A stretch of 64,000 nt of DNA from an uncultured Oscillospiraceae bacterium (GTDB lineage: Bacteria > Bacillota > Clostridia > Oscillospirales > Oscillospiraceae). Position numbers and translations under genes: made by a program. The DNA lies in the NCBI GenBank assembly GCA_947626265.1, contig CANQRM010000003.1:62001-126000 (forward strand), written 5' to 3'. Under the pieces are notes generated by a model. The model searched no databases. It was not told where the DNA came from and worked only from the letters and a program-made list of their open reading frames with translations. Each line of letters opens with the position of its first letter. Position 1 is the stretch's first letter. Positions 15,735 through 38,628 of this stretch are shown one piece after another.

Positions 15735-15756
15735 CACCGCAAAGGAGGAAGCGCGT

Positions 15757-16701: not shown

Positions 16702-16708
16702 GAAAAAC

Positions 16709-16745: not shown

Positions 16746-16754
16746 CGGGAGGGC

Positions 16755-17192: not shown

Positions 17193-17226
17193 ACGGGTTT
17201 CGGTCTCCTCTTTCTTTGTCCCGGAT

Positions 17227-17255
17227 ATGATAGCACAATCTTACGCGATTTGCAA
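17227..17255 (-). promoter_or_regulatory. Putative promoter TTGCAA-N17-TATCAT for ohrR-like gene
   Basis: Read on minus strand: TTGCAA (17255-17250), 17-bp spacer, TATCAT (17232-17227), AGAGGAG before start. Confidence 0.5.
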
Positions 17256-17342
17256 ACACTTGCGTGCATTTTTAAGAACTTTCACAAAAATTTCTTATGA
17301 TTGTTTGCGACCGAATTGACCCGGGCCCGCCGGGGCGGCTCC

Positions 17343-17371
17343 TTGACAGGTCCCGGTATACTAATTATAAT
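17343..17371 (+). promoter_or_regulatory. Perfect consensus sigma-A promoter TTGACA-N17-TATAAT
   Basis: TTGACA 17343-17348, 17-bp spacer, TATAAT 17366-17371, ~35 bp before GT2 start. Confidence 0.85.
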
Positions 17372-17406
17372 GCTATACAGGAAAATGGGGCCATCGGAGG
17401 ACGAGT

Positions 17407-18342: not shown

Positions 18343-18346
18343 GCGC

Positions 18347-19282
18347 ATGGGAACGATAAGCGTCATCATCCCGGTCTACAAGGTGGAGGATTATCTCGAC
18401 CGGTGCGTTCAGAGCGTGCTGGCCCAGACCTATGAGGATATTGAGGTCATACTGGTGGACGACGGCTCCCCCGACGGCTGCGGGGCGAAGTGCGACGAGC
18501 ATGCGGCCCGGGACAGCCGGGTGAAGGTCATCCACCGGCCCAACGGCGGCCTCTCCGCCGCCCGGAATACCGGCCTGGATGCCGCCGCGGGGGAGTATAT
18601 CCTCTTCGTGGACGGGGACGACTATATTGCCCCGGACATGGCTGAAAAGCTGCTGGCCGCGCTGGAGGATACCGGCGCGGACGCGGCGCTGTGCGATATA
18701 AAATGCGTGGACGACGAGGGCAATGTGGTCCGGGAGCTGCCCCCCTTCGAGGCGGGGGTATTTGGCCCGGAGGAGATATACCGGCGCATGACCTTCGACG
18801 ACTGGGCCATGCGGTATGTGACCGCCTGGAACCGGCTGTATAAGAGGGAACTCTTCGACGGGCTGCGCTTTGAAGAGGGGAAGCTCCACGAGGACGAGTT
18901 CCTTGCCCACCGGCTCTACGACCGCTGTGAAAAGGTCGCGGCGGTGTCGGACGAGCTCTATTACTACGTCCAGCGGGGCGGGAGCATCATGAGCGCGCCC
19001 AAGTCCCTGGCCCGGCTGGACAGGGTCCAGGCCCGCTTCCAGCGGTATGAGTTTTTCAAGGAAAAGGGCTTCAGGGACCTGACCGGCCCCACCCTCCGGC
19101 GGGACTATGAGTTTTTGTGGGACGTGATGGCCCATGTGGATGTGAAGGCGAATAAGGCCGCCATCCGTCCCTGGGCGGCCGCCATCGCCCGGGAGCAGCT
19201 GAAAAGGCTGGACGTGCGTGGCGCGTGGCTGTGGCTATACTACCTGCGCCGGGCGTACGGGCCCGGGAGAGAGGACGCATGA
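18347..19282 (+). CDS. GT2 family glycosyltransferase (paralogue of preceding gene)
   Basis: 'ISVIIPVYKVEDYLDRCVQSVLAQTYEDIEVILVDDGSPDGCGAKCDEHAARDSRV', same length as upstream gene. Confidence 0.92.
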   Translation: MGTISVIIPVYKVEDYLDRCVQSVLAQTYEDIEVILVDDGSPDGCGAKCDEHAARDSRVKVIHRPNGGLSAARNTGLDAAAGEYILFVDGDDYIAPDMAEKLLAALEDTGADAALCDIKCVDDEGNVVRELPPFEAGVFGPEEIYRRMTFDDWAMRYVTAWNRLYKRELFDGLRFEEGKLHEDEFLAHRLYDRCEKVAAVSDELYYYVQRGGSIMSAPKSLARLDRVQARFQRYEFFKEKGFRDLTGPTLRRDYEFLWDVMAHVDVKANKAAIRPWAAAIAREQLKRLDVRGAWLWLYYLRRAYGPGREDA

Positions 19283-22703: not shown

Positions 22704-22712
22704 GGAGCGGGT

Positions 22713-23543
22713 ATGGACATAGACACAAAAGCGGTACAGGCCCGGGAGCTGGCGATACTCAAAGAGGTATCGGCGGTGCTGGACCGGCTGGGCCTGCGGT
22801 ACTGGGCCGACGGGGGCACCTTGCTGGGGGCCGCCCGGCACAGGGGTTTCATCCCCTGGGACGACGACGTGGACATCGGCATGCCCCGGCCGGATTTTGA
22901 TAAGTTCCGCCATCTGGCCGCCAAGGAGCTGCCCGAATGGCTGGAATTACAGGACTATGAGAACGTGCGCCACGCGGGCCACTCCATCCTGAAGATACAC
23001 GACGTGCGCACCACCTTCGTGGAGGATGTCTTTGCCTCCTGGCCCGAGTGCCACACGGGAGTGTATATCGACATCTTCTGCTTCGACGGCTTTCCGGACC
23101 CGGGGCCGGAGCGGGAGGAACGGGTGCGCCGGAAAAAGCAGTTCATCCGCCTGAACGGCTTTCTGCGGGCCGACTGGCGGGATACCCGCACGGCGGGTGA
23201 GAAGCTGCGGTATATCCTGCTCGCCCCGGTGCGGTGGCTGCTGCCCTTCAACTGGGCGAGCATGTGCCAGGAGGAGCTGTACCGGAAGAGCGATTTCGAT
23301 ACCGCCAACTGGATCAGCGAGTGCTTCGAGTGGGTGGTATACCCCGCCGGATGCCTGCGGGGGACGGTGAAGCTGCCCTTCGAGGACATGGAATTGCCCT
23401 GCCCGGCGGGATACGATGAATACCTGACCACGGTATACGGCGACTGGCGCCAGCCGCCCCCGGAGGGGGAGCGTATCCCCGCCCACCCGGTGGCCTGGTT
23501 CAGTCTGGACAAGTCCTACCGGGACCGCTGGTGGGAAAAATAA
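22713..23543 (+). CDS. LicD family phosphotransferase
   Basis: 'LRYWADGGTLLGAARHRGFIPWDDDVDIGMPRPDFDKF' LicD signature. Confidence 0.93.
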   Translation: MDIDTKAVQARELAILKEVSAVLDRLGLRYWADGGTLLGAARHRGFIPWDDDVDIGMPRPDFDKFRHLAAKELPEWLELQDYENVRHAGHSILKIHDVRTTFVEDVFASWPECHTGVYIDIFCFDGFPDPGPEREERVRRKKQFIRLNGFLRADWRDTRTAGEKLRYILLAPVRWLLPFNWASMCQEELYRKSDFDTANWISECFEWVVYPAGCLRGTVKLPFEDMELPCPAGYDEYLTTVYGDWRQPPPEGERIPAHPVAWFSLDKSYRDRWWEK

Positions 23544-23594: not shown

Positions 23595-24617
23595 TCACTT
23601 GCCCGCGGCCCGGAGCCGCAGCTTCGTGATGAACAGGGCCGGGAGGTATAGCTTGCACTTCACCAGCAGCACGTAGAGCTTGATATACCCCGGCAGGCCG
23701 TCCAGGGTCAGGTCCTTGGCAAGGCCCGTCTCCTTCATGGCGGCGGCTATCCGCTTCGCCGCGGCTGCGAGGCCCGTCCCGCCATACAGCACCTCCATGG
23801 ACAGGCCCCGAATGAGGCCGTTGTGGACCGTGAAGGCGTTGATCTGGGTCGGGAACAGGGGGGAGAGAGGGGCCAGATGGGAGTTTACATAATCTAAAAG
23901 CCACCGTATCTCCTGGAAGAACCGGGGCCGGTAATGGCGCAGGTTGGAGTTCTGGACCCTGCGGTAGATATAGAGCTTCTCCCGGGAGATGTACACGCTG
24001 TCGGCGAACCAGAGGCACTCGTAGGTCATGGCCGTGTCCTCGTAGAGGGTGATGCGGCCGTCGGAGAGGTAGTGCTCCGCGATGAGCGCCCGCCTCCACG
24101 CCTTGGTGTACAGGAAGCCGGGCAGCAGCTGGGTGCCGAAGGGGGCGCGGCGGGCGTCGCAGACCATGTAGGGGTATATCTCCTTTTCCAGGCGGGCCTT
24201 GTCGTAATATCCCTCGTCGGCGTATACGGGCTGCTCGACCTCGCCGGTGTCCCGGGCGATGTCGCAGACCACCACGTCGGGATGGTGGGCGTCGATATGC
24301 TCCTTGAGTACCGCCAGCCACCGGGTCTCCACCCAGTCGTCCGCGTCGGCGAAGCACACATACTCGCCCTTCGCTCTATCCAGGCCCGCCTTCCGGGCGG
24401 GGGTGGGACCGGCGTTGGCCTGATGGATAACCGAGACGCGGCTGTCCCGGGCGGCATAGGCGTCGCAGAGGGCGGGGCTGCCGTCAGGGGAGCCGTCGTC
24501 CACCAGAATGAGCTCAAAGTCGGGGCAGGTCTGGGCGAGGATGCTCTCCACGCACTGAGAGAGATACTTCTCCGCGTTGTAGACCGGGACGATGACGGAA
24601 AAAAGCGGCATAGGCAA
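23595..24617 (-). CDS. GT2 family glycosyltransferase
   Basis: 'LFSVIVPVYNAEKYLSQCVESILAQTCPDFELILVDDGSPDGSPALCDAYAARDSRVSVIH...CFADADDWV'. Confidence 0.92.
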   Translation of the reverse strand: MPMPLFSVIVPVYNAEKYLSQCVESILAQTCPDFELILVDDGSPDGSPALCDAYAARDSRVSVIHQANAGPTPARKAGLDRAKGEYVCFADADDWVETRWLAVLKEHIDAHHPDVVVCDIARDTGEVEQPVYADEGYYDKARLEKEIYPYMVCDARRAPFGTQLLPGFLYTKAWRRALIAEHYLSDGRITLYEDTAMTYECLWFADSVYISREKLYIYRRVQNSNLRHYRPRFFQEIRWLLDYVNSHLAPLSPLFPTQINAFTVHNGLIRGLSMEVLYGGTGLAAAAKRIAAAMKETGLAKDLTLDGLPGYIKLYVLLVKCKLYLPALFITKLRLRAAGK

Positions 24618-24623
24618 CTCCTT

Positions 24624-25619
24624 TCAGTCCATGCGTGCGCGCACCAGCGCCGCGGCCGCCGGCCACAGCCGGCACTTTAAAAGCACTAAAAAGGCCTTCA
24701 TGTAAAGGGGCAGGCCGTCGAAGGAAAGCTCCCCGGGGATGCCCGTCTCCCGCATGGCCCGGCCCGTGTTCCGGGCGGCGGCGGAGAGGCTGTCCCCGTG
24801 GGCGCACTCGGTGGCTATGGCGGTGATGACCATGCCCATGTACGCGCCGTTGATCTGCCTGTCGATGGCGGGCTCCAGGCCGCCCATGCGCCGGCGCAGA
24901 TACTGAAAGCAGGTCTGCACTTCCTGAAAGTACCGGGGCCGGTAGGCGTTTAAAAGCGACCCCTCCCGCAGCCGGTAGACATACAGGGGCTCGTGGGTAA
25001 TATACATGCTCCCGGCGTAATACATGCACTCGTAGGCCATGGCCACGTCCTCAAAAAGGGTGACGCCGGAGGCGGCCTCCACGTAGTGGTCCAGCAGCAG
25101 CTGCCGCTTTCCCACCCGGGCCCAGATGAAAGCGGGCACCTTCCGGGAGGGGGCGGCGTTGTCGCAGATCATGTAGGGGTATACCTCTTTTTCCAGGCGG
25201 GATTTGTCGTAATACCCCTCCGCCGCGCCGATGGGGTAGCGGGTGGGACCGATGTCCCGGGTGTGGCCGAAGAGGACGATGTCCGGTCGGTGGTTTGCGT
25301 CGATGTGGCCCTTCACCGTCTCCAGCCAGTTGGGCAGCACCCAGTCGTCGGAGTCCACAAAGGCCACGTATTCGCTTTTCGCCGCGTCCAGGCCCGTCTT
25401 CCGGGCGGCGGCGAGGCCGCCGTTTTCCCGGTGGATGACCCGGATGCGGGGGTCTTTTTCGGCGTATGCGTCGCAGAGGGCCGGGCAGCCGTCGGGGGAG
25501 CCATCGTCCACCAATATGAGCTCAAAGTCGGTCCAGGTCTGGGCCAATATGCTCTCCACGCACTGGGAAAGGTATTCTTCCACCTTGTAGACCGGGACCA
25601 CCACGGAAAATTCGCTCAC
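24624..25619 (-). CDS. GT2 family glycosyltransferase
   Basis: GTG start 25619 gives 'VSEFSVVVPVYKVEEYLSQCVESILAQTWTDFELILVDDGSPDG'; overlaps upstream gene's stop by 4 bp. Confidence 0.9.
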   Translation of the reverse strand: MSEFSVVVPVYKVEEYLSQCVESILAQTWTDFELILVDDGSPDGCPALCDAYAEKDPRIRVIHRENGGLAAARKTGLDAAKSEYVAFVDSDDWVLPNWLETVKGHIDANHRPDIVLFGHTRDIGPTRYPIGAAEGYYDKSRLEKEVYPYMICDNAAPSRKVPAFIWARVGKRQLLLDHYVEAASGVTLFEDVAMAYECMYYAGSMYITHEPLYVYRLREGSLLNAYRPRYFQEVQTCFQYLRRRMGGLEPAIDRQINGAYMGMVITAIATECAHGDSLSAAARNTGRAMRETGIPGELSFDGLPLYMKAFLVLLKCRLWPAAAALVRARMD

Positions 25620-26659
25620 GCCCCCGCCCCCTTTCCGGCCATGGCCGCCGCGATGCGCACGCACAGGCCCGTAAAGCCCATGTCCAGCAGACGGTAGAAT
25701 ACCCGGGTGGCCATATCCCCCCGGGCGGCGGCATAGCGGGTCAGGGCCCCGGCGGGGGCGCCGTCATGGAAGTTTTTGACCAATGCCCGCCGCTGGGCCA
25801 TAGAGAGGTCCGCCCGGCCCGCGGCCCGGTAGACGCGGGCGTGGACCATGCTGCCCACGAAGGCCAGCACGGCGTTTTTATCCATGTTGAAATCTTCCGC
25901 CACTTTGCGCAGGGCCTCATATACGGCCCCGATGCGGGCAAGCTCCTCCTCCCCGGAGCGGTGGGACACGGAGCCTGAGAGGATGCGGTGGTGGTATTTG
26001 GCGGTCGTGGGCGCGGTGACAACTTTCTCAGCCAGGGACACCGCCGCGGCGTTCAGTACCGCGTCCTCCCCCAGGGACAGCCGCCCGTCATACCAGGGCA
26101 GGGCTTTTTGAAGCAGATCCCGCCGATAGAGCTTGTCCCACTTGGCGTAGGTCAGGGGCCGGTCCGGCTTATCGGGGACGCCGTCGTAGCGGAAGGAGAG
26201 CATGTACTCCTCCGCCAGACGCTTTAAGTCTTCAAGTCCCTCCCAGCAGGTGACGCCGGTGCGGCGGCTGCCCATGGTGCGCTGGGTATCCCCGGAGAAT
26301 ATCTCATTGACGAACTGGCCTTCTATGATGTCCGCGCCGTGGGTTTCCAACGCATGCAAAAGCTCGGCGAACCAGTCCGGGTCCACCCAGTCGTCCGCGT
26401 CCACGAAGCCCAGAATGTCCCCTTGGGCGGCCTCTATCCCCGCGGCCACGGCGTCGGCCACGCCCCCCGGGGCCCGGTGCAGGACCCGGACGCGGGCGTC
26501 CTTCGCCGCGTAGGCGTCGCACAGGGCGGGGCTCTCATCCGTGGAGCCGTCGTCCACCAGAATGAGCTCCCAGTCCTCCATGGACTGGGCAAGGACGCTG
26601 TCCACGCATGGGGCGAGATACGCCGCCGCGTTGTAGACGGGTACGATGACGGATACCAT
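25616..26659 (-). CDS. GT2 family glycosyltransferase
   Basis: ATG 26659 gives 'MVSVIVPVYNAAAYLAPCVDSVLAQSMEDWELILVDDGSTDESPALCDAYAAKDARV...GFVDADDWV'. Confidence 0.9.
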   Translation of the reverse strand: MVSVIVPVYNAAAYLAPCVDSVLAQSMEDWELILVDDGSTDESPALCDAYAAKDARVRVLHRAPGGVADAVAAGIEAAQGDILGFVDADDWVDPDWFAELLHALETHGADIIEGQFVNEIFSGDTQRTMGSRRTGVTCWEGLEDLKRLAEEYMLSFRYDGVPDKPDRPLTYAKWDKLYRRDLLQKALPWYDGRLSLGEDAVLNAAAVSLAEKVVTAPTTAKYHHRILSGSVSHRSGEEELARIGAVYEALRKVAEDFNMDKNAVLAFVGSMVHARVYRAAGRADLSMAQRRALVKNFHDGAPAGALTRYAAARGDMATRVFYRLLDMGFTGLCVRIAAAMAGKGAGA

Positions 26660-26667
26660 AGCGCGCC

Positions 26668-27648
26668 TCACAGGAGCCTGGTGAGCTCTTTGTACCAGCC
26701 CCGCCGGTCTACGAACTGGCGCACGCATATGTCCGCCCTATCGTTGCCCTCGATGAGGCACACGCCTTTGTCCGTCACGGCCACGTCCCAGCCGATGTAG
26801 CGCATGTCGGGCACCTCTTTGGCCGCGGCGGTGACGAGAGAGACCGCCTCCTCCCAGTGGGGCACATGATAGCCCGGGAAGGGGACGCCGCTCAAGGGGT
26901 GCACCACATACTCCCGCCGGTTCATGTCGATGGCGGGGGTGGTGACGACGCCGGTATCCACGTCGATGTGGGCGGCCATGCCCCCTGCGCCCATGTTATC
27001 CACCACCGCGTTCCCCGCGCCGGTGCGCAGGAACGCGGAGAAGACGTGCACATTGCCCTTTCCGTCCACCATGGTGTTGAGCCGGGGCACGTTGGTGCTG
27101 GCGGGATTGAAGGCGGCAAGGCTGGAGTGCTGCAGCACCATCTCCTCCGCCAGCATGTCCCGGCTGCCGTCGTAGAGGGCGCGCAGGTCGTCCGCCGGGT
27201 CGTAGTCATAGCGGGAGATGCCCTTGCCGCAGGAGAGACTGGTGGCCTTGAGCATCACATGGCCGTGGGCCTTGACGAAGGCTTCAAATTCGTCGAAGCT
27301 GGCCTGTGAAAGGTCCAGCCAGTCCCGGTTCAAATAGGGCGCAAAGCGCCGGTTGAAGGCGGCCTTGTTGATGAAAAGCTGCTTGTCCCCGGTGTTGACC
27401 TTTTGGATGAAGCGCTCGAAGCGGAGCATAGTGAAGTACCGGGCCCGCTCCCGGTCGCTTTTTTTGTCGAAGTTCAGCTGGGCGTACTCCGCGGGGCTGG
27501 AGCCGTGGCGCGCCACGCACCAGAGCATGCTCACCCAGTTGGTGAAGCAGCCCCAGCCTGTATATTGGGCCTTCATCTGCTCCCGGAAAAATTCGAAGGA
27601 GCTCTGGAAAAGCCCTTTTAAGGTGGCCTCCCGAAAGATGTCGCTCAT
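26668..27648 (-). CDS. Sugar-transfer-associated ATP-grasp domain protein
   Basis: ATG 27648; 'HVMLKATSLSCGKGISRYDYD...LAEEMVLQHSSLAAFNPASTNVPRLNTMVDGKGNVHVFSAFLRTG...IGWDVAVTDKGVCLIEGNDRAD' typical of ATPgrasp_ST. Confidence 0.78.
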   Translation of the reverse strand: MSDIFREATLKGLFQSSFEFFREQMKAQYTGWGCFTNWVSMLWCVARHGSSPAEYAQLNFDKKSDRERARYFTMLRFERFIQKVNTGDKQLFINKAAFNRRFAPYLNRDWLDLSQASFDEFEAFVKAHGHVMLKATSLSCGKGISRYDYDPADDLRALYDGSRDMLAEEMVLQHSSLAAFNPASTNVPRLNTMVDGKGNVHVFSAFLRTGAGNAVVDNMGAGGMAAHIDVDTGVVTTPAIDMNRREYVVHPLSGVPFPGYHVPHWEEAVSLVTAAAKEVPDMRYIGWDVAVTDKGVCLIEGNDRADICVRQFVDRRGWYKELTRLL

Positions 27649-28619
27649 GCCTTGTCCTCTTTCTTCTCCGCCGCGGGGGCATTCTCCGTGCGGCGGACGG
27701 TGTACTGGGGCAGGTCGCTGACGGTCATGAAGATGCGCCCCACATACTCCCCCAGGATGCCCAGCATCATCATGATAACGCCGCCGATGAAGCACTGCAC
27801 GGCGATGGAGGTGGTGTAGCCGGCGGCGATGTGGGCGTTCAGGAGCTTGCGGATGACCATGATCACCGCCACGAGAAAGCCGAACACGGCGGTCAAAACG
27901 CCCACCACCGACGCCATCCGCAGGGGCACGATGGAGAAGTTCGTGAGGGCCGTCACCGTCAGGGCCAGCAGGCGCTTTAAGCTGTAGTTGGATTTGCCCG
28001 CCAGGCGGTCCCGGTGCTCCATGGGGACGTTGGCGATGCGGGTGGTGATGCGGTTGAGGTAGAGCCCCGCCGCGGGGAAGGGGCTGTGGTAGTTTTTCGC
28101 CGCGTCCACGGCCATGCGGCTCCAGGCGGTGAAGGAGCTGACCGCGATGCCCCGGGGCCGGTTGCCCATCCAGGCGGCCACGGCCTGGTAGAGCCTGGAG
28201 CAGGTGCGCTTGAACCAGGAGTGGTGCTTCTGGGGGAACTGGGCGTACACCACGTCGTAGCCCTCGGCCAGTTTGTCCAGCATGGGGAAGATGCCCTCCG
28301 CCGGGTGCTGGCCGTCGTCGTCCATATATACCACCGCGTCGCCGTCGGCGTAGGCCAGCGCCGCCTGCTTGGCGGCGGCCTGGCCGTAGTTGCGGGAAAG
28401 CTCCACCCCCACGATGTGCGCGTCCTCTTTGCACAGCGCGCATATCACGTCATAGGTGTCGTCGGGAGAGCCGTCGGAGACCAGAATGAGCTGGTAGTCA
28501 TAGCCCTCGTGCTTGGCAAAGGCCTCGCGTATTTCCTTCACTACCGCGGGCAGGGTCTGGGCGCTGCGGTAGCAGGGGATGCATACGGATACGAGCATAG
28601 CTTTTTCCTCCCCGTTCAT
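27645..28619 (-). CDS. GT2 glycosyltransferase with C-terminal TM helices (GtrB/ArnC-like)
   Basis: 'LVSVCIPCYRSAQTLPAVVKEI...DDDGQHPAEGI', two TM segments near C-terminus. Confidence 0.9.
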   Translation of the reverse strand: MNGEEKAMLVSVCIPCYRSAQTLPAVVKEIREAFAKHEGYDYQLILVSDGSPDDTYDVICALCKEDAHIVGVELSRNYGQAAAKQAALAYADGDAVVYMDDDGQHPAEGIFPMLDKLAEGYDVVYAQFPQKHHSWFKRTCSRLYQAVAAWMGNRPRGIAVSSFTAWSRMAVDAAKNYHSPFPAAGLYLNRITTRIANVPMEHRDRLAGKSNYSLKRLLALTVTALTNFSIVPLRMASVVGVLTAVFGFLVAVIMVIRKLLNAHIAAGYTTSIAVQCFIGGVIMMMLGILGEYVGRIFMTVSDLPQYTVRRTENAPAAEKKEDKA

Positions 28620-29689
28620 GTGTCAGAAAGGCGGAACGCGCCGGGCTTATCGCCGGGCGTCAGGGCGTGGTCGAAGATGCCCTTTTCCTGCAGGGGCAGG
28701 GTCCGGGCCAGGTGTTTGGCCCGCTGGTAGAAGTCCCAGCCCAGGGCCACGTCCACGTAGGAAAGGCCTACGGCGTTGAAGTAGATGAACTCCTCCGGCT
28801 TTTCCCGGCCGGGGATGCGGCCCGCCACGATGTCGGGCAGGTCCCCATGGATGTCGCTGTCACGGAGCTTCCCGGCCTGGTAGAGGCGGGTGAGGGTGGG
28901 GCTTCCCCGGCTTCTCAGGTGATGCCAGTTGTCGCAGACGATCTTGTCCGCCTTGAAGACGGTCTCGTCGTCGTCCTCCCAGCCGCCCACGTGGCTGTAG
29001 AAGGCCCCGGGCTTGCACCATGCTCCGTGGAGCACCGGCGCCTGGCCGCTGATGGCCGTGACGATCACGTCCGCGCCCGTGGCGGCCTTCTCATAGTCCC
29101 CCCCGCAGGGGATGAACTCCATGTCGGGGAAGAGGGGAGAAAGCTCCCGGATGAACTCCTGCTCCCTTGCCTCGGTCCGGGAGGACACCCGGCAGACCCG
29201 CAGCCCCGGCAGGGCGGTCTTCAGCCCCGCCAGGTGCATTTTTGCCATCTCCCCGGCGCCGATGAAGCCGATCTCTGCGCTGTCGGGCCGGGCCAGGTAC
29301 TTGGCCCCCACGGCGCTGACCGCGGCGGTGCGGACGGCGGAGCAGAGCATGGCCTCGATGAGGGCGATGGGATAGCCCGTCTCCAGACTGGACAGCAGCA
29401 CCACCGCGGACTGGTTCTGGGTGCCGAAGCGGTGGGGGTTTTCCGGGAACACGGATATCCACTTGGCCCCGCACACCCCCTTATCCAGCAGCGTGGCCGG
29501 GAGGATGTTGATGCGGCTCTGCACCGCCTCGTCGAAGATCTGCACGGTCTTGTCCGGATAGAGGACCCGGCCATTGGCGTAGGCCAGCATGACGTCCTCC
29601 ACCACGGCCATGGCCCGCTCCATGTCGAAGCAGCCGGCCCGGAGCATGTCCTCCTGGGAGAGATATTGAATGTTGAGCTCGGTTTCCAT
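28616..29689 (-). CDS. Ornithine cyclodeaminase / mu-crystallin family NAD(P)-dependent enzyme
   Basis: 'LSQEDMLRAGCFDMERAMAVVEDVM', 'LIEAMLCSAVRTAAVSAVGAKYLARPDSAEIGFIGAGEMAKMHL' (Rossmann GxGxxA region). Confidence 0.83.
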   Translation of the reverse strand: METELNIQYLSQEDMLRAGCFDMERAMAVVEDVMLAYANGRVLYPDKTVQIFDEAVQSRINILPATLLDKGVCGAKWISVFPENPHRFGTQNQSAVVLLSSLETGYPIALIEAMLCSAVRTAAVSAVGAKYLARPDSAEIGFIGAGEMAKMHLAGLKTALPGLRVCRVSSRTEAREQEFIRELSPLFPDMEFIPCGGDYEKAATGADVIVTAISGQAPVLHGAWCKPGAFYSHVGGWEDDDETVFKADKIVCDNWHHLRSRGSPTLTRLYQAGKLRDSDIHGDLPDIVAGRIPGREKPEEFIYFNAVGLSYVDVALGWDFYQRAKHLARTLPLQEKGIFDHALTPGDKPGAFRLSDT

Positions 29690-29705
29690 GGGTTTGCCTT
29701 TCTTT

Positions 29706-30959
29706 TCAGGAAAAACGGTAGAGCTGGAAGATCATATTTTCGCCCCGGTCGTCCTCCGCCCGGAGCAGGGCGGTCACTTCATCTACGGCGGCGGCCAGGC
29801 CGGCCATATCGTCGTACAAAAGATGCAGGTAGCAGAACACCTGGCTCACGGTGCCGGTGGCCCGGATGGTATCCCCCGCCCGGTGGATGGGCACGTAGGC
29901 GTAGACCTGGGGAAGGGCCCGGACCGCCTCCTCGCCGGAGACGGACTTTATGACGCCGGGGCGGATATGCAGCGGCAGGATGCCGTAACGCTTCCCGGCG
30001 GGCCTGTCCCGGCGGATGAGGCTCGTATGCTTCGCGGGATCGGGCTTGTCGCCTAAGGCGTAGCGCAGCATCAGCTCCAATTGGTCCACGCCGGTGAAGT
30101 AGCGCACCGGGTGATAGGTCATGGACCCGCCAAAGCGGTAGCCCATCTCGTTGAAGATAAAATGGCCCCGGTCGTTGAACGCCTCGATCCACACCGGCCC
30201 GTCGTGCATCCCCGCGGCGCGGAACATGGCCCGGACCTTTTCGTCCAGCGTGGCGAGATACTGCTCGGTCCAGGCGGAGGGGAACTGCTGCAATGCCATG
30301 ACGGACCCGCCGCCCTCGCCAAGGAGCATGGAGCGCTTATCGGATATGCCGCCAAACAGGGCCTCGCCGCCGCAGAGGGTGTAGTGGATGATGGAGGCGT
30401 CGTAAGGGATATATTCCTCTATCAGCACCGTGCCGGTGCGGGAGAAGGGCAGGGCCTTTTGAAGCGCGGGGGCCAGCTCCTCCGGGGCCCGGCAGATGGA
30501 GAAGCCCTGGCTGCCGCAGCTGTCCGCGGGCTTCACCGCCACGGGATATTCCACGCTTTCGGGTTTCGCCGGGTCATAGGTCTTCGCCACCGGGATGCCC
30601 GCCGCCCGGCACATGGCCTTGAATTTGGCTTTGTTGGCGCAGTCGTCCCACATCTTCCCGTCGCAGTAGATGGGAAGGCCGGTCCTCTCCGCCGCGGCGA
30701 TGGCGTGGGGCATCACATCCTCGTTGTTGCCGGGGAACACCCCGTCGATGTGGGCTTCTTTTATAAGCGCGGCCAGGGCGTTCTCGTCCACCGCGTCGGC
30801 GTCGTAGCGCTCGTCGGCGATGGCCTTTAAGGCGGTGAGGCCGAAGCGGGGCGGGGCGGTGGCGATGAGAGTGACGCCGTTTGCGTCCGCGAAGCGGCGG
30901 ATGTCCTCGGTGCTGTTGGACCCGCCCAGCAGCAGCAGGCGCTTTCCTTGAAGGGTCAT
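29706..30959 (-). CDS. ATP-grasp ligase
   Basis: ATG 30959 gives 'MTLQGKRLLLLGGSNSTEDIRRFAD'; 'PVAVKPADSCGSQGFSICRAPEEL...VLIEEYI...FNEMGYRFGGSM' ATP-grasp features. Confidence 0.83.
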   Translation of the reverse strand: MTLQGKRLLLLGGSNSTEDIRRFADANGVTLIATAPPRFGLTALKAIADERYDADAVDENALAALIKEAHIDGVFPGNNEDVMPHAIAAAERTGLPIYCDGKMWDDCANKAKFKAMCRAAGIPVAKTYDPAKPESVEYPVAVKPADSCGSQGFSICRAPEELAPALQKALPFSRTGTVLIEEYIPYDASIIHYTLCGGEALFGGISDKRSMLLGEGGGSVMALQQFPSAWTEQYLATLDEKVRAMFRAAGMHDGPVWIEAFNDRGHFIFNEMGYRFGGSMTYHPVRYFTGVDQLELMLRYALGDKPDPAKHTSLIRRDRPAGKRYGILPLHIRPGVIKSVSGEEAVRALPQVYAYVPIHRAGDTIRATGTVSQVFCYLHLLYDDMAGLAAAVDEVTALLRAEDDRGENMIFQLYRFS

Positions 30960-32068
30960 AAACGTTCTCCCAAAGTTATCCACCAGCCGTGGCGGCTGGC
31001 GCTGTCGGTGACGCCGCCGTCGGGATGGCCGTCATAGCTGCAGCGCCAGAGGGCCTCCGGGGCGTCTCGTTTTATTCTCTCCAGTTTTTCCGCGTCATCC
31101 CGGGTGAAGATGAACCGCACCGCCGCGGCGTGGGGCGCCCGCTTGGGGGCAAGGTCCGGGGCGTGCCCTAAGGCGACGTCGATGACGGCGGCCATGTAGT
31201 CCACGCCGGTGGACAGATACACCAGGTCCGAGCCGATGCAGTCCCCGCCCATGCGGGCGCCGATCTCGATGATGCGGGCCCGGCCGTCGGGGCCCAGGCG
31301 GAACTCGGCGTGGCTGGCCCCATAGCGGACGGACAGGGCGTCCAGGGCTTTCTTGATATCGGCATGGATGGCGGGGATGAGCGCCGCCGGGATGTCCGAG
31401 GGCTCGTCGTGGCCCGTCTCGATGAAGTGGGGCGCGCCGGTGGTGTATTTCTTCGTCAGCGCCAGGATGTGGTGTTCCCCGGCGAAGGACACGCTCTCGC
31501 AGCTGTACTCCGGGCCGGTGAGGACTTCCTCTATGATGGCCTCCCGGTGGAAGGACTGGGCCGCCGCCTGGGGGATGGCGGCGCAGAGAGACGGATAATC
31601 TGATACCTGGAAGATGCCCCGGCTGCCGGAGCGGTCCGTGGGCTTCACGATGAGGGGCCAGGTCATGTTCGCCAGCTCCTCCTCCGCCGGCGGGGCGGAG
31701 ACCTTCATGAACCGGGGGCAGGCCACTCCCGCCGCGGCCAGGGCCCGGCGCATCTCATACTTATCCGTGGCGATGGTGTCGGTGATCTCCGGGTTGCAGG
31801 GGATGCCCAGCTTTCGCTGGACGTAGTTCACCGTGTGCACGGCCAGATCCGACCCGATGGAGCAGCACCCCTCCACGCCCTCGGCTTTGCATACCTGCCA
31901 GATGGCCTCCTTCTCCGTGATGCTGATGGGGTGGAACCTGTCCGCGAGCTTTTCCCCCACGTCCCCCGCCGCCCAGGCGAACGCGTGGGTCTCAAAGCCC
32001 ATCTCCTTCGCCTTTTGGATGAGGGGGGCCTGAAATTCATTGGCGCCGATGACGGCCAGCTTTCTCAT
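30956..32068 (-). CDS. ATP-grasp ligase (biotin carboxylase-like / amino-acid ligase-like)
   Basis: 'KLAVIGANEFQAPLIQKAKEMGFETHAF...PLIVKPTDRSGSRGIFQVSD...IIEVGARMGGD'-type motif 'RIIEIGARMGGDCIGSDLV'. Confidence 0.86.
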   Translation of the reverse strand: MRKLAVIGANEFQAPLIQKAKEMGFETHAFAWAAGDVGEKLADRFHPISITEKEAIWQVCKAEGVEGCCSIGSDLAVHTVNYVQRKLGIPCNPEITDTIATDKYEMRRALAAAGVACPRFMKVSAPPAEEELANMTWPLIVKPTDRSGSRGIFQVSDYPSLCAAIPQAAAQSFHREAIIEEVLTGPEYSCESVSFAGEHHILALTKKYTTGAPHFIETGHDEPSDIPAALIPAIHADIKKALDALSVRYGASHAEFRLGPDGRARIIEIGARMGGDCIGSDLVYLSTGVDYMAAVIDVALGHAPDLAPKRAPHAAAVRFIFTRDDAEKLERIKRDAPEALWRCSYDGHPDGGVTDSASRHGWWITLGERL

Positions 32069-32083: not shown

Positions 32084-34288
32084 TCAGCCCTCCATAAGGC
32101 TGTAGGCGGTGGTGGTGTATACCTGTTCGCCCTCGGCCGTGACGCCGGCAGTGAGCCGGGCCTCGCTGCCCGCGGGGGCGAAGGTGTAAGTCTTCCCGTC
32201 GATGACCTGCTCTCCGGTGAGAGCCTGGCCGTCCTGGAAGTAGTAGGTCATGCCGTTCTGCTCATGCCAGCCGGTATAGCCCTCCGAGGGACAGACAATG
32301 TCCAGGTCCGTGACAAAGGTGTCCGCGGTGAGCTGGGCAGCGCTCCTCGCCTGGACGGGGCCGAAGTCCAGCGTCAGGTATTGCAGCAGCGCCAGGATGG
32401 TGCTGGGCCTCTGGCACATGAATTGGACATCCTCCCGGAAGAAGGCATCGGCGTAGAGCCGGTCCGGGTCCGACGTGACGCCGGTGCCGCCCCACAGGTG
32501 CATGTTGCCGGGGTAGGCCGTCGCGTCGTGGAAGGGGTCCAGGTTTTGACTGATAAAGTTGGTGACGAAGTATATATCCGGATGGGCGCTGGCGTAGCTC
32601 TCCGTGGCATCCTGGAAGGCGAAGACATCCTTCCGGCCCACGGCCTCGCCGGTGTAGGGCACGCTCCGGGCGGAGAGCCCCGCCGTGACGCACAGCGCCG
32701 CGCCAAGGACAACGGCGATGGCCTTCTGCCAGGGCCGGGCGGGCTTTTCCGCCGCCGGGCCGGACAGGGCGAACAGGAGGAGCATCACCGCCGCGGGGAT
32801 GACCACCACCAGGTGGACCCTGAGCAAAAACCGCCCCTGCCGGATGAGGTACAAAAGCAGCACCGCCCCGCCGCCGAAGGCGGCCAGGGCCCCCAATATC
32901 TCCGGCCAGCAGCGCCTGCCCCGGCGGAGAAGCGTCAAAAGCGCCAGCGCCAGCAGCAGGGGCAGGCACAGGGCCGTCAGGGCCATGGTGCGCAGATGGC
33001 CGGCGCTCTCCATGGAGGTGGCCGCCGCCAGGGAGCCGGCCGCCAGGGAGGGCTCATAGTACATGTCCGCGATGGCCTTGAAGGTGTCGGTGTTGACGCG
33101 CTCGTCCATGAAGTACCAGGCCCGCAGGAGGTTGGATAGCTCCGGGGGCAGGCCCGCGGCTTCCAGCTGCTCGTTGGTAAGACCGTCTATGAGGTAGTCC
33201 ATGACGACGGAGCGGTAATGCTCGGCCTCGGCGTATCCGGCGGAGGCGGCGGGGTCCTGCCCGGCGTCGGAGCTGTCCAGCCAGAGACGGCCCACGCCCT
33301 CGTAAAGCCCGAAGCCCACGGCGGCGCAGAGGGCCAGGGCGGCGAGACGCCGTGCCCGGTCCGGGTCCTTTTGAAGCCATATCCTGAGCAGCTGATACCC
33401 CACCGCCAGGGCCCAGAAGCACATGATGCACTGGGCCGTGTAGGTGCGCTGCAGCCGAACCAGCAGGAGCATCAGCAGGCACCCGAGGTCTGTGGCGATG
33501 CGCCCGGCCCGGCTTTTCGTCCCGTCCCGGCAGAGGGTGAGGGCCACCGCCGCCGTGCCCAGCAGAGCGGGGGTCACCGTGAAGGAGAGCTCCGCCGCCG
33601 CCGGCAGGGCCAGCCCCGCGCACAGGAGGGCAAATATACCCATGCCGCCCAGGGCGGACATGCCCCGGCGGGAGGTCTTTAAAATGATGCACCGGCCGAT
33701 GACGGTGAGGGAGACGGCGATGGCGAGAATGTGGTAGCCGCCGTACCAGTACCCGTGGGGGTCGATGCGGTAAAAAAGGCCCAGAAGGCCGCAGAACAGG
33801 TAATGGGAAAAGGCGTGGGCGGCAGCGCCAAGCCCCTCCGCGGGGATGCGGGCGATGGTGCGCATGAGCGTCACGTCGTCGTTGGTCATGAAGGAAATGA
33901 CCGTGACCCGCCATGTCCACAGGAGGAACAGCCCCGTCATGCCCGCCGCGGCCAGCCATCGGGAGCTATCTTTCGTCATGGCCCTGTCAAGCCCCGCCAG
34001 GAGCTTTTCACCCCTATCCGCGGCGAACAGGGCCATAAAGGCCACCGCGAGAGCCAGAAACAGCGCCGTCCGGCCGGGATAGGCCGTGCCGCCCCAGGCG
34101 GGCAGCAGCGCCTCCGCCGTCATGCGCCGGGCGACGGCGCTCTGGACGGCGAGATAGGTCAAAAGCGCCGCGGCCAGGGCCCGGAGCGCCACGGACCACT
34201 TGTCCTCCCTGGAGGCATACAACCGCCCGCACACCACCGCCGCGGCGGCGGTGAGGGCGAATATGGCGATGTAGCGCAGGTAGGTCAT
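32084..34288 (-). CDS. Polytopic GT-C-like membrane protein with C-terminal extracytoplasmic region ending in cell-wall-binding-repeat-like segment
   Basis: 734 aa, many TM segments; 'SFMTNDDVTLMRTIARIP' acidic motif after an early TM; C-term 'GWHEQNGMTYYFQDGQALTGEQVIDGKTYTFAPAGSEA'. Confidence 0.65.
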   Translation of the reverse strand: MTYLRYIAIFALTAAAAVVCGRLYASREDKWSVALRALAAALLTYLAVQSAVARRMTAEALLPAWGGTAYPGRTALFLALAVAFMALFAADRGEKLLAGLDRAMTKDSSRWLAAAGMTGLFLLWTWRVTVISFMTNDDVTLMRTIARIPAEGLGAAAHAFSHYLFCGLLGLFYRIDPHGYWYGGYHILAIAVSLTVIGRCIILKTSRRGMSALGGMGIFALLCAGLALPAAAELSFTVTPALLGTAAVALTLCRDGTKSRAGRIATDLGCLLMLLLVRLQRTYTAQCIMCFWALAVGYQLLRIWLQKDPDRARRLAALALCAAVGFGLYEGVGRLWLDSSDAGQDPAASAGYAEAEHYRSVVMDYLIDGLTNEQLEAAGLPPELSNLLRAWYFMDERVNTDTFKAIADMYYEPSLAAGSLAAATSMESAGHLRTMALTALCLPLLLALALLTLLRRGRRCWPEILGALAAFGGGAVLLLYLIRQGRFLLRVHLVVVIPAAVMLLLFALSGPAAEKPARPWQKAIAVVLGAALCVTAGLSARSVPYTGEAVGRKDVFAFQDATESYASAHPDIYFVTNFISQNLDPFHDATAYPGNMHLWGGTGVTSDPDRLYADAFFREDVQFMCQRPSTILALLQYLTLDFGPVQARSAAQLTADTFVTDLDIVCPSEGYTGWHEQNGMTYYFQDGQALTGEQVIDGKTYTFAPAGSEARLTAGVTAEGEQVYTTTAYSLMEG

Positions 34289-34302
34289 AGCCGCTCCTTG
34301 TG

Positions 34303-36459
34303 TCAGTCTGCTATAAGGCTGCAGGCGTCGGTGGTGTAGATAACCGCGCCGCCTTCGCCGGCGATGGGCATGAACTGAGCTTCGCTCCCGGCGGGGGCAA
34401 AGGTATATGTCTTGCCGTCGATAAGCTGCTCGCCGGTGAGGGCAACGCCGTCCCGGAAATAATAGGTCATGCCGTTTCGCTCATACCAGCCCGTGTAGTC
34501 TTCCCCGGGGGAGACGGCGTCAATGTCCGTCACGGCGACGCCCTCGCCCAGCTGGGCGGTGAGCGACGCCTGCACGGGGCCGTATTCCACGCTCAGATAT
34601 TGCAGCAGGGCGGCCAGGGTGGAGAACCGGTCGTTCATAAAGAGCACGTCCTCCCGGAGGAAGGCGTCGGCGTAGAGCCGGTCCTCAGGGGCCTTGGCCG
34701 TGTCGCCGCAGTAGCCCCACTGAACGATGTTTTCAGGGTAATCGCCCAGAGGGCAGAGGGGGTCGGTGTTGGCCTCGTGGTGGTCGTAGACGCTGGAGAT
34801 GATGAGCTTGTCCCCGTTTTGGGCGGCGAGATCCTCGATGGCGGACTGCAGGGCGAACACGTCCGAGCGGGTGACGGCCTCCGCCGCCCGGGGGGTGGTA
34901 TAGGCGCCCAGGGCGCAGCAGATCACCGCGGTCACAGCGCCCAGGGCGGCCAGCGTCCCGGCGGCGCGCCGCCGGGAAGGAGCAGGGGCCTTCGCGTTCG
35001 CCGGGGCGGTCAGCGCCGTTAAGAGCAGCAGCACTGCCGCGGGCAGCGTCACCACCAGAAACACCCGCAGGGGGAAGCGGCCCATATCCACCAGGTACAA
35101 CAGCAGTATCCCCGTGCCGCCCAGGGCGCACAGCGCGCATAATAGCTCCAGCCACCACCGCCTGCCGAAGCGGATGAGGGCGGCGGCGCAGCAGAGAAAT
35201 ACGGCAAAGATGAATCCCAGCCGCGCGGACATCTGTCTGTCCGCGCGCACATAGCCGGCCAGCCGGGAGAGAAGACCGCCCGCCCGGGAGAGGGCGGAGG
35301 CGTTCCCGCCGCCGGTCTGGTTCTGGTAGTGGATGTTGATCACGTCCCGGAAAAGGTCCGTGGTCACCTGCTCGTCCATGAAGAACCAGCCGTGTATCAG
35401 CGTGGCCAGCTCTCGGGAGACGCCCGCCTGTTCATACTCCTCCAGGGTCAGCTCGTCGTTGAGGAAGTCCACGATGCGGGAGCGGTAATTCTCCGCCTGG
35501 CTGTAGGCGGGGTCGACGGGGACGATCTCGGCGCGGCCGATGGCCGTCACGCCCAGGGCGATGGCCAGGGACGCGGCAGCGAACAGGGCGGTCCGCCCCA
35601 AACCCGTCCGGGCCAAAAGCATGCGCACCAGCTGATAGCCCACAGCCACGGCCCAGAAACACAGCGCCGCCCGGCCCGTCTGCCGCCGCTGGAGGATGCT
35701 GAGGACCAGGAGGACGGCCGCCGCTATGTCGGACGTGACCCTGCCGGCGGTGGTCTTGTTCCCGTCCCGGCAGAAGGTGAGCGCTATGGCCGCGGAACCC
35801 GCCACGGCGGGGGTCACGGTGAAGGAGATGGCGGCGAAGCAATAGAGGAAAAGCCCTGCGCACAGCCCGGCCTGGATGGCCGCACCGGCCCAGGCGGGCC
35901 ACCCACGGCCGCAGGTCCGCATCAAAATGCACCGGCCGATGACCGTGAGGGAGACGAGCAGCACGGTAAGGTGAAAGCCCAGATACCAATACCCGTCCGG
36001 ATAAAGGCCGTAGAGCTTCCCCAGGGCCCAGCTCAGAAGCTGGCTGGAGAACACGCCGGCGGTGGCGTCCAGGCCCTTCTCCGGCACTTGGGCGATGGCC
36101 AGCAGGAACGTGGTGTCGTCCATGGTCATGTAGGCCAGCACCGTCACCCGCAGGGCCCAGACGAAAAACAGCGCCGTGACCGCCCCGGCGGTGAGCCAGC
36201 GCCACCGGTCCTTCTGGCAGGCCCGGTCCCAGGCGGCGAGCATGGCCCGGCCCCTGTCCGTCAGGGCCAGGGCGAAGCCCAGCACCAGAAAGGCCCCCAG
36301 CCGCGCCAACCGCCCGGGGAGGAAGGCTCCCTCCGCCACGGGCAGGAACAGGTCCAGACCCACCCGCCGGGCCACGGCGCTCTCCGCCGCCAGAAAGGCG
36401 ATGAGCCCCGTCATGAGCCCGGCCAGGGCCGCGCCCCATGGATAGCGCCGCTGGGTCAT
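34303..36459 (-). CDS. Paralogous polytopic GT-C-like membrane protein with C-terminal cell-wall-binding-repeat-like segment
   Basis: 718 aa; 'AYMTMDDTTFLLAIAQVPEKGL'; C-term 'GWYERNGMTYYFRDGVALTGEQLIDGKTYTFAPAGSEA'; collinear with neighbouring paralogue. Confidence 0.65.
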   Translation of the reverse strand: MTQRRYPWGAALAGLMTGLIAFLAAESAVARRVGLDLFLPVAEGAFLPGRLARLGAFLVLGFALALTDRGRAMLAAWDRACQKDRWRWLTAGAVTALFFVWALRVTVLAYMTMDDTTFLLAIAQVPEKGLDATAGVFSSQLLSWALGKLYGLYPDGYWYLGFHLTVLLVSLTVIGRCILMRTCGRGWPAWAGAAIQAGLCAGLFLYCFAAISFTVTPAVAGSAAIALTFCRDGNKTTAGRVTSDIAAAVLLVLSILQRRQTGRAALCFWAVAVGYQLVRMLLARTGLGRTALFAAASLAIALGVTAIGRAEIVPVDPAYSQAENYRSRIVDFLNDELTLEEYEQAGVSRELATLIHGWFFMDEQVTTDLFRDVINIHYQNQTGGGNASALSRAGGLLSRLAGYVRADRQMSARLGFIFAVFLCCAAALIRFGRRWWLELLCALCALGGTGILLLYLVDMGRFPLRVFLVVTLPAAVLLLLTALTAPANAKAPAPSRRRAAGTLAALGAVTAVICCALGAYTTPRAAEAVTRSDVFALQSAIEDLAAQNGDKLIISSVYDHHEANTDPLCPLGDYPENIVQWGYCGDTAKAPEDRLYADAFLREDVLFMNDRFSTLAALLQYLSVEYGPVQASLTAQLGEGVAVTDIDAVSPGEDYTGWYERNGMTYYFRDGVALTGEQLIDGKTYTFAPAGSEAQFMPIAGEGGAVIYTTDACSLIAD

Positions 36460-37580
36460 CGCTTGTAAAAGGCCGTGACGGCCTCCACAGCCTTCTCCAC
36501 GTCGGAATCGGCGAGGCCGTAGTGCATGGGCAGGCGCAAAAGCCGCTCGCTCTCCCGGGTGGTGTACTTATCCTCCCCGTGGAACCGGCCGAAGCGCAAT
36601 CCCGCCGTGGCGGAGTGAAGGGGCACATAGTGGAACACGGACTGGACGCCCCGCTCCCGCAAGAAGGCGATGAGGGCGGTGCGCTCGGAGATGTCCCTGG
36701 CCTTGACGTAGAACATGTGGCCGTTGTGCACGCACCCTTCGGGGACGGCCTGCCAGTCGATACAGCCCTCCCGTTCCAGGGGTGCCAGGCCCTCCCGGTA
36801 GAGCTGCCAGCTGTGGAGCCGGGCGGCGTTTATCTCGTCCGCCATCTCCAGCTGGCCGTAGAGGTAGGCGGCGTTCAGCTCGCTGGGCAGGTAGCTGGAG
36901 CCCAAGTCCTCCCAGGTGTATTTATCCACCTGGCCCCGGAGCAGCCGGGCCCGGTTGGTGCCCTTCTCCCGGATGACCTCCGCCCGGGGGTCATCCTCCC
37001 GCAGGAGGATGGCGCCGCCCTCGCCCATGGAGTAGTTTTTCGTCTCATGGAAGCTGTAGCAGCCGTAGTCCCCGATGGCCCCCAGGGCCCTGCCCTTGTA
37101 GGTCGCCATGACCCCCTGGGCCGCGTCCTCCACCACCTTCAGGTCATGGCGGCGGGCGATGTCCAGGATGGCGTCCATCTCGCAGGCCACCCCGGCGTAG
37201 TGCATGACGCATATGGCCCGGGTCCGGGGCGTAATGGCATCCTCGATGAGCTTTTCGTCTATGTTCATGGTGTCCGGCCGGATGTCCACGAATACGGGCA
37301 CCGCCCCGGCCAGGACGAAGGCGTTGGCCGTGGAGGAGAAGGTATAGGAGGGCAGGATGACCTCGTCCCCGGGCTGGAACTGGCAGAGAAGCGCCGCCAT
37401 GTCCAGGGCGTGGGTGCCGCTGGTGGTCAGGAACGCCCGGGCCGCGCCGGTGCGTTCCGTGAGCCATTCGTGGCACTTTTTCGAGAAGGCCCCGTCGCCG
37501 CATATCTTATGGGAGTGGATGGCCTCCAGAACATACTGGTCCTCCCGGCCGCAGTAGGGGGGTATGTTGAACAGGATCAT
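36456..37580 (-). CDS. DegT/DnrJ/EryC1 aminotransferase, dTDP-4-amino-4,6-dideoxygalactose transaminase-like (WecE/RffA)
   Basis: 'ILFNIPPYCGREDQYVLEAIHSHKICGDGAFSKKCHEWL', 'TTSGTHALDMAALL', 'YSFHETKNYSMGEGGAI'. Confidence 0.9.
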   Translation of the reverse strand: MILFNIPPYCGREDQYVLEAIHSHKICGDGAFSKKCHEWLTERTGAARAFLTTSGTHALDMAALLCQFQPGDEVILPSYTFSSTANAFVLAGAVPVFVDIRPDTMNIDEKLIEDAITPRTRAICVMHYAGVACEMDAILDIARRHDLKVVEDAAQGVMATYKGRALGAIGDYGCYSFHETKNYSMGEGGAILLREDDPRAEVIREKGTNRARLLRGQVDKYTWEDLGSSYLPSELNAAYLYGQLEMADEINAARLHSWQLYREGLAPLEREGCIDWQAVPEGCVHNGHMFYVKARDISERTALIAFLRERGVQSVFHYVPLHSATAGLRFGRFHGEDKYTTRESERLLRLPMHYGLADSDVEKAVEAVTAFYKR

Positions 37581-37605: not shown

Positions 37606-38628
37606 TCAGCGGTTGGCGTACATCCGCTCGTAGTAGGTCTTGTACTCGCCGGAGACGATCTGCTCCCACCAGGGACGGTTGTCCAGGTACCAGCGGATGG
37701 TCTTTTTGATGCCGTCGGCAAAGGCGGTCTCCGGCGTCCAGCCAAGCTGGGCGTGTATCTTCGCCGGGTCGATGGCGTAGCGCAGGTCGTGGCCCTTCCT
37801 ATCGGTGACGTAGGTGATGAGGCTCTCGGGCTTATCCAGGGCCTGGCAGATGAGCTTCACGATGTCGATGTTGCGCATCTCGTTGTGGCCGCCGATGTTA
37901 TAGACTTCGCCGATGCGTCCTTTCTCCAGGATGAGATCGATAGCCTTGCAGTGGTCCTCCACATACAGCCAGTCACGCACGTTCAGGCCCTGGCCGTAGA
38001 CGGGCAGGGACTTGTCGGCAAGGGCGTTCGCGATCATCAGGGGGATGAGCTTTTCCGGGAACTGGTAGGGGCCGTAGTTGTTGGAGCAGCGGCTCACCGT
38101 CACCGGCAGGCCATAGGTGCGGTGATAGGCCAGGGCCAGCAGGTCCGCCCCCGCCTTGGAGGCGCTGTAGGGACTGGAGGCGTGCAGCGGCGTGCTCTCG
38201 GTGAACAGAAGGTCCGGCCGGTCCAGAGGCAGGTCCCCGTAGACCTCGTCGGTGGAGACCTGGTGGAAGCGGATACCCCCGTGGGCCCGGCAGGCGTCCA
38301 TGAGCACCTGCACACCCAAGACGTTGGTCTTCAGGAATATCTCCGGGTCCTCGATGGACCGGTCCACGTGGGTCTCGGCGGCGAAGTTCACCACCGCATC
38401 GGGCTTTTCCGCCTCAAAGATGGCGTCTATCCCCGCCCGGTCCCGGATGTCCTGGCGGTAGAAGGTGAAGCGGCTGTCCTCCATGGCCCGGGCCAGGGTG
38501 GACATGTTTCCCGCGTAGGTGAGGCTGTCCACGCAGACGATGGAAACGTCCGGACGGTTATCCAGCAGGTAGTAGACGAAGTTGGCGCCGATGAAGCCGG
38601 CGCCGCCGGTGACCAGCAGTTTTTTCAT
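37606..38628 (-). CDS. rfbB: dTDP-glucose 4,6-dehydratase
   Basis: 'MKKLLVTGGAGFIGANFVYYLLDNRPDVSIVCVDSLTYAGN', 'ETHVDRSIEDP', 'PYSASKAGADLL'. Confidence 0.95.
   Translation of the reverse strand: MKKLLVTGGAGFIGANFVYYLLDNRPDVSIVCVDSLTYAGNMSTLARAMEDSRFTFYRQDIRDRAGIDAIFEAEKPDAVVNFAAETHVDRSIEDPEIFLKTNVLGVQVLMDACRAHGGIRFHQVSTDEVYGDLPLDRPDLLFTESTPLHASSPYSASKAGADLLALAYHRTYGLPVTVSRCSNNYGPYQFPEKLIPLMIANALADKSLPVYGQGLNVRDWLYVEDHCKAIDLILEKGRIGEVYNIGGHNEMRNIDIVKLICQALDKPESLITYVTDRKGHDLRYAIDPAKIHAQLGWTPETAFADGIKKTIRWYLDNRPWWEQIVSGEYKTYYERMYANR

Follow-up and report, generated by a model that had tools for sequence, protein, structure and literature searches.

We analyzed a stretch of 64,000 nucleotides from an uncultured Oscillospiraceae bacterium (assembly GCA_947626265.1, contig CANQRM010000003.1, positions 62,001 to 126,000), here called the window, in which a gene of the ornithine cyclodeaminase/mu-crystallin superfamily (OCD) lies among genes for ATP-grasp ligases within a glycan locus. 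By sequence comparison, the locus divides into two separable modules: the ligase ATPg1 with the aminotransferase WecE and a family 2 glycosyltransferase (GT2), and the ligase ATPg2 with OCD, GT2, and a third ATP-grasp protein, ATPgrasp_ST. We consider it moderately likely that these genes serve amino acid synthesis and the decoration of 4-amino-4,6-dideoxy-D-galactose (Fuc4N), which would be linked to undecaprenyl phosphate (Und-P), exported, and moved onto a cell-wall glycopolymer. An earlier sequence-only reading of this DNA had proposed amino acid synthesis and attachment to an amino sugar by one module. That function fits all of the comparative evidence, as well as the WecE and RmlB assignments, but synteny gives two modules, not one.

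Two gene modules in a glycan locus

The genes form a long run on the minus strand, in the transcription order RmlB, WecE, memA, memB, ATPg1, ATPg2, OCD, GT2, ATPgrasp_ST, and three further GT2 genes (Table 1). The open reading frames (ORFs) of OCD, ATPg1, and ATPg2 were all found where the sequence-only reading had placed them, with coding-type codon-position GC, and together with the family matches and an ATGA overlap they confirm its description of three tandem, co-oriented, and tightly packed genes. Such 4-base ATGA overlaps occur at the ATPg1/ATPg2, OCD/GT2, and GT2/ATPgrasp_ST junctions, an arrangement as in a tight operon. For ATPg2, the ATG at 30959 was favored over the less likely mechanical GTG start at 30983; RmlB starts at the ATG at 38628, with a Shine-Dalgarno-like stretch just before it. 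Four related metagenome-assembled genomes (MAGs) keep ATPg1, ATPg2, OCD, and GT2 at full length with 72-98% identity. OCD, ATPg1, and ATPg2 are thus real genes, and their intact motifs, described below, make them active-looking. The sugar aminotransferase had been described as lying beside them; WecE does belong to the same run, but it is not adjacent, being located upstream with two large membrane-protein genes (4.4 kb) in between.

Five other genomes of the family, not counting one very near relative, carry an ATPg1 orthologue with 47-70% identity. In four of the five loci (L046, L073, L075, and L076), the orthologue lies near WecE and a GT2 of the CsbB/ArnC/PgfS kind, and the fifth, L074, which is at a contig edge, carries RmlB and a GT2. 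Because these genomes have only two or three full-length DegT genes each, the linkage of ATPg1 to WecE is far beyond chance; three of the five belong to one genus and hence are not independent. ArnE/F-like SMR pairs are present in four of these loci, GtrA in L076, and a YfhO GT-C protein in L073. OCD was absent from all five.

The second module is found elsewhere. In a genome from another family of the same order (G542), ATPg2, OCD, GT2, and ATPgrasp_ST are collinear (49, 49, 50, and 29% identity, respectively), with neither ATPg1 nor WecE alongside. The pairing of ATPg2 with OCD is seen in L081, where the syntenic homologue of ATPgrasp_ST is likewise a PF14397 protein. In a further genome (G290), OCD (52% identity) is flanked by an ATP-grasp of the L-amino-acid-ligase (LAL) type on one side and a DesI-type aminotransferase on the other; a dTDP-Qui4N formyltransferase that scores above its cut-off and RmlA/RmlB come next. 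This LAL-type ATP-grasp falls on a different branch of the tree from ATPg2. The arrangements in G290 and G542 therefore appear to pair OCD with two different ATP-grasp lineages. Besides the window genome, no close relatives were found in a class sample for ATPg2 or a phylum sample for OCD, indicating that the cassette is rare.

Related loci show further combinations. In a genome of the window's own genus (G295; L073, 7960-10345), the slot that ATPg2 and OCD would occupy between ATPg1 and GT2 is filled by a different, LAL_C2-bearing ATP-grasp, which looks like a swap of cassettes. One locus of another genome (G230; L046, 8090-18207) contains four ATP-grasp genes, two different DegT aminotransferases (WecE-like and DesI-type), and RmlA/RmlB. 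A capsule locus on an Enterococcus hirae plasmid (L107, 4228-10191) combines a dehydratase, a PseC-like DegT protein, a sugar transferase, and one ATP-grasp, which may stand in place of the usual N-acetyltransferase. ATP-grasp pairs near a DegT aminotransferase also occur in Bacteroides and Parabacteroides plasmid records. The proximity of ATP-grasp and DegT genes in these three genera suggests that glycan loci probably make common use of ATP-grasps to ligate amino sugars.

Table 1. Genes of the minus-strand run, with coordinates in the window
Feature	Coordinates	Strand	Support
RmlB, dTDP-glucose 4,6-dehydratase	37606..38628	-	TIGR01181, 486 bits (cut-off 365)
WecE, dTDP-4-amino-4,6-dideoxygalactose transaminase (to dTDP-Fuc4N)	36456..37580	-	NF008687, 583 bits (cut-off 375); TIGR02379, 580 bits (cut-off 435)
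memA, multi-transmembrane protein, candidate GT-C transferase	34303..36459	-	Topology, PF19127 repeat; GT-C role putative
memB, memA paralogue, candidate GT-C transferase	32084..34288	-	Similarity to memA
ATPg1, ATP-grasp carboxylate-amine ligase linked to the WecE module	30956..32068	-	PF13535, 3.5e-18
ATPg2, ATP-grasp of L-amino-acid-ligase fold, linked to OCD	29706..30959	-	Fold match to 3vot
OCD/mu-crystallin family enzyme, SbnB-like amino-acid/opine dehydrogenase	28616..29689	-	PF02423, 1.8e-54
GT2 of CsbB/ArnC/PgfS type, candidate Und-P-sugar synthase	27645..28619	-	PF00535, 94 bits
ATPgrasp_ST, third ATP-grasp	26668..27648	-	PF14397, 141 bits
Three downstream GT2 glycosyltransferases	23595..26728 (25616-26728, 24624-25664, 23595-24617)	-	Family matches

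The OCD-family enzyme and the ATP-grasp ligases

The proposed OCD/mu-crystallin identity was borne out by a PF02423 match of 185 bits against a cut-off of 24. The NAD-binding motif GAGxxA is intact and conserved, as are Arg-59, Lys-76, and Arg-120, which we take to be the substrate-carboxylate site of the family. By profile, the closest solved structure is SbnB (PDB entry 4m54, 291 bits), whose family, TIGR03944, is also the top NCBIfam match. The parallel with SbnB drawn previously does not extend to membership, which we rejected because the TIGR03944 score is 187 bits against a cut-off of 326.9 and no SbnA partner scored above its cut-off in the four carrier genomes. In the window genome, the gene that best matches SbnA (TIGR03945) is CysK-like and lies on another contig, with 242 bits against a cut-off of 350, and matches below this cut-off were seen in all control genomes as well. 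The same score and the same missing partner stand against an SbnB-type route, in which OCD would free L-2,3-diaminopropionate from an SbnA product for use by the ATP-grasps; despite the structural and NCBIfam ranking of SbnB, we consider such a route very unlikely.

Ornithine and lysine cyclodeaminases belong to the same Pfam family as OCD, which could by this kinship supply proline or pipecolate for attachment. However, in the PDB profile ranking the cyclodeaminases fall far below SbnB, P2C reductase, and alanine dehydrogenase, and a segment that is ~5 residues longer in alanine dehydrogenase and P2C reductase is shortened in OCD, as in SbnB. Presumably this segment is the place of the catalytic Asp in the Pseudomonas putida OCD. 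A cyclodeaminase activity is unlikely, and the attachment of its product highly improbable.

The nearest characterized relatives of OCD include archaeal alanine dehydrogenase, the family of which gives the best score, still below cut-off, for the OCD homologue in L045. In addition, the nearest homologues outside glycan loci (53% identity) have catabolic-looking surroundings; they are uncharacterized proteins, and the assignment of close homologues to an unrelated pathway, which the sequence-only reading had named as counterevidence, was thus not found. These observations would suit an ordinary amino acid dehydrogenase, such as one for alanine or glutamate. It would provide either a common amino acid or the nitrogen needed in the WecE transamination, and the ATP-grasps alone would carry out the decoration. 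For a common amino acid, however, there would be no need of a dedicated gene that is present in a single copy and keeps its place between ligase and glycosyltransferase genes, and OCD adjoins an ATP-grasp in two unrelated arrangements, with no WecE beside it in G542. We therefore regard an ordinary dehydrogenase as unlikely. In all four tested genomes that carry OCD in a glycan cluster, the window genome included, it is the sole OCD-family gene, and this speaks for a dedicated role in biosynthesis. The glycan-linked OCDs also group together in the tree with moderate support (91/90), and the next branch consists of two homologues from catabolic contexts.

Further homologues were recorded in other collections. 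A cyanobacterial one (50% identity) on an Acaryochloris plasmid (L105, 14998-16057) lies apart from glycan genes, with FAD and 2Fe-2S oxidoreductase subunits and transposases nearby, and is annotated as two overlapping coding sequences, likely because of a frameshift. Contigs of a viral collection (L094-L104) had only distant OCD-family homologues (25-41%).

The ATP-grasp identity of both neighboring ligases was likewise confirmed, for ATPg1 by PF13535 and for ATPg2, whose Pfam ATP-grasp matches are weak (best about 1e-6), by its fold. The AlphaFold model of ATPg2 (pLDDT 89.7) has the L-amino-acid ligase BL00235 (PDB entry 3vot) as its top PDB match (E = 2.7e-26, TM 0.75/0.79), at about 19-20% identity, and RizA is also among the best matches; the model thus points to an L-amino-acid-ligase fold. 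Residues Lys-103, Lys-142, Glu-180, Glu-255, Glu-268, and Arg-272 of ATPg1 are conserved, and Lys-110, Lys-143, Glu-181, Glu-259, Glu-271, and Arg-275 are present in ATPg2. Both proteins keep the two ATP lysines, the metal-binding acidic pair, and the arginine of ATP-grasp carboxylate-amine/thiol ligases, and the loss of catalytic residues that had been raised as an objection was not seen. BacD, DdaF, and the CPSase-like ligases, previously suggested for comparison, proved to be only distant relatives. With ATPg1, DdaF reached 29 bits and BacD 25 bits against cut-offs of 840-850, and neither was among the ATPg2 matches; membership of ATPg1 and ATPg2 in the BacD and DdaF families was rejected because the curated equivalog scores were not reached.

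The ligase fold of ATPg2 and this distant DdaF/BacD similarity would also be compatible with a glycan-unrelated role, in which the two ATP-grasps and OCD make a small dipeptide metabolite of the bacilysin or dapdiamide kind. We give this very little credence, as the block showed no gene for a carrier protein, for export, or for resistance and the syntenic loci are all glycan loci.

A third ATP-grasp gene, overlooked earlier, lies two genes downstream of OCD. ATPgrasp_ST was hidden in a longer spurious ORF, the upstream part of which overlaps the GT2 gene in a different frame. Its PF14397 ("sugar-transfer associated") score is far above the gathering score of 31.4, placing it in that family.

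Sugar, lipid carrier, and membrane proteins

Both WecE and RmlB pass their curated cut-offs, and hence the sugar made by the locus, and with it the acceptor, is probably dTDP-Fuc4N. The ATP-grasps might instead couple the amine of an amino acid to a sugar that bears a carboxyl group (a uronic sugar), as amides of that type are known in surface glycans (PMC10609480). We find this distinctly improbable, since no uronic-acid dehydrogenase was present among the operon genes examined and ATPg1 tracks the aminotransferase across genera.

For the GT2 after OCD, the best NCBIfam matches are ArnC (180 bits) and PgfS (169 bits), both below the equivalog cut-off, and we take this protein to be comparable to CsbB. 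A GT2 of the CsbB/ArnC/PgfS type points to an undecaprenyl-phosphate carrier. GT-A enzymes of this kind make C55-P-sugars, which are used outside the membrane by a flippase and a GT-C enzyme (PMC8035078). Candidate flippases are a Wzx-like gene in the window and GtrA genes elsewhere in the genome.

The memA and memB proteins share 47-48% identity and an invariant MT.DD loop motif, and about 12 transmembrane segments are predicted for a memA orthologue. Each ends in one cell-wall/glucan-binding-type repeat (window 32084-36459, minus strand; YTGWxExxGMTYYF...; PF19127), which is unusual at the end of a putative glycosyltransferase. In a PDB profile search, both proteins matched only in this C-terminal repeat, which glucan-binding proteins also have, as do large clostridial toxins in their repeat regions; no toxin domain was matched. 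The AlphaFold model of memB (pLDDT 40.3) is too poor for use as fold evidence.

Facing this run on the plus strand (window 15424-23543) are three GT2 genes and genes for a Wzx-like flippase, a LicD-like protein, and a TagF-like protein that contains a glycosyltransferase DXD domain, probably glycopolymer backbone genes with phosphocholine-type decoration. The window belongs to contig C3 of genome G000 (3.2 Mb). Its closest named relatives are MAGs of Oscillospiraceae whose isolate names contain "Lapin", presumably for rabbit gut.

A proposed route to aminoacylated Fuc4N

We propose that RmlB and WecE, as their family assignments suggest, make dTDP-Fuc4N, the 4-amino group of which would bear an amino acid or a short peptidyl group. 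ATPg1 would activate an amino acid carboxylate with ATP and form an amide with this 4-amino group. OCD may act as an NAD(P)H-dependent dehydrogenase that makes a dedicated amino acid, which ATPg2 would couple directly or as a second residue, and ATPgrasp_ST would probably add or modify a further one. The sugar would be placed on Und-P by GT2, turned over by a flippase that is Wzx-like or of the GtrA/SMR type, and transferred outside by the multi-transmembrane, GT-C-like memA or memB. ATPg1 and WecE would form the conserved base, and ATPg2 with OCD an exchangeable second-residue cassette.

In a variant of this route, OCD would join a common amino acid to a 2-oxo acid in one step, giving an opine (an N-carboxyalkyl amino acid). 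SbnB, the nearest solved relative, has an opine-like secondary amine as its substrate. The opine form is attractive because of this relative, because one enzyme suffices without a partner, and because alanopine is a precedent; we regard it as possible but doubtful. As cited in PMC10609480 (reference 48), Providencia alcalifaciens O35 carries alanopine on 4-amino-4,6-dideoxyglucose, and PMC10609480 also cites acyl groups made of two parts on this sugar, hydroxybutanoyl-alanyl for example. Somewhat more readily, although still tentatively, we suggest an exchangeable cassette of LAL-type ATP-grasp and OCD, as an opine or nonstandard amino acid synthase, that extends ATP-grasp-aminoacylated dTDP- or Und-P-Fuc4N and gives a peptidyl amino-sugar wall decoration via an Arn/CsbB-like carrier route in gut Bacillota.

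Several points weigh against the proposed decoration of Fuc4N. RmlA was not located in the window genome, and the window operon has no SMR or GtrA gene, the GtrA genes lying elsewhere in the genome. It is from topology and the DD motif that memA and memB could be GT-C transferases. ATPg1 and ATPg2 score far below the equivalog cut-offs of all characterized ligases; ATP-grasp ligases act on other carboxylates too, so the bond type could differ. We infer the substrates of OCD and the ATP-grasps, the identity of the product, the bond, and the order of ligation.

Parts of the locus resemble known systems. The multicomponent transmembrane glycosylation systems CsbB-GtcA-YfhO and GtlA-GtcA-GtlB combine a C55-P-sugar GT2 with a large multi-transmembrane protein, like the candidate proteins here (PMC8035078), and relatives of the locus have YfhO or GtrA next to the module. 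The characterized systems add, for example, Gal or GlcNAc (PMC8035078), whereas this locus has a Fuc4N pathway, three ATP-grasps, and OCD. The Arn pathway (ArnB-ArnC-ArnE/F-ArnT, Und-P-Ara4N) is similar in its DegT-made 4-amino sugar, its ArnC-type GT2, and the ArnE/F-like SMR pairs of the relatives. It differs in using UDP-Ara4N and ArnA formylation, compared with dTDP-Fuc4N and predicted ATP-grasp aminoacylation here, where no lipid A acceptor is expected. The N-acylated 4-amino-4,6-dideoxy sugars of O-antigens, such as that of P. alcalifaciens O35 with alanopine, match the predicted outcome, an amino acid or opine amide (PMC10609480); acceptor and envelope differ. BL00235, RizA, and BacD resemble ATPg1 and ATPg2 in fold and active-site layout, but the genomic context of ATPg1 and ATPg2 is that of a glycan, not of free dipeptides. 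SbnB, DdaB, and VioK share with OCD the closest solved structure and the overall subgroup, from which OCD departs in its score below the SbnB cut-off and its lack of SbnA.

Searching the literature for ornithine cyclodeaminase together with ATP-grasp and polysaccharide returned no paper, and related searches gave no direct precedent; no assignment was found of an OCD and ATP-grasp pair, or of the enzymes that make or attach unusual groups like alanopine. The individual parts are of known kinds, and their combination is not described in the searched literature. If our proposal is correct, glycan decoration would, to our knowledge, be a role not assigned to any OCD enzyme before. O-antigen and teichuronopeptides are listed among the products of linked peptide ligases (PMC4431377), and the general idea of ligase-decorated glycans is therefore not new.

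Amino acid groups on 4-amino sugars are already known from surface-glycan chemistry, and the OCD and ATP-grasp cassette tied to the WecE pathway offers named candidate genes for such groups. If the proposal holds, lipid-carrier glycosylation of the Bacillota wall would extend to charged, amino acid-bearing sugars in common, little-studied gut bacteria, and wall charge and host recognition would be affected.

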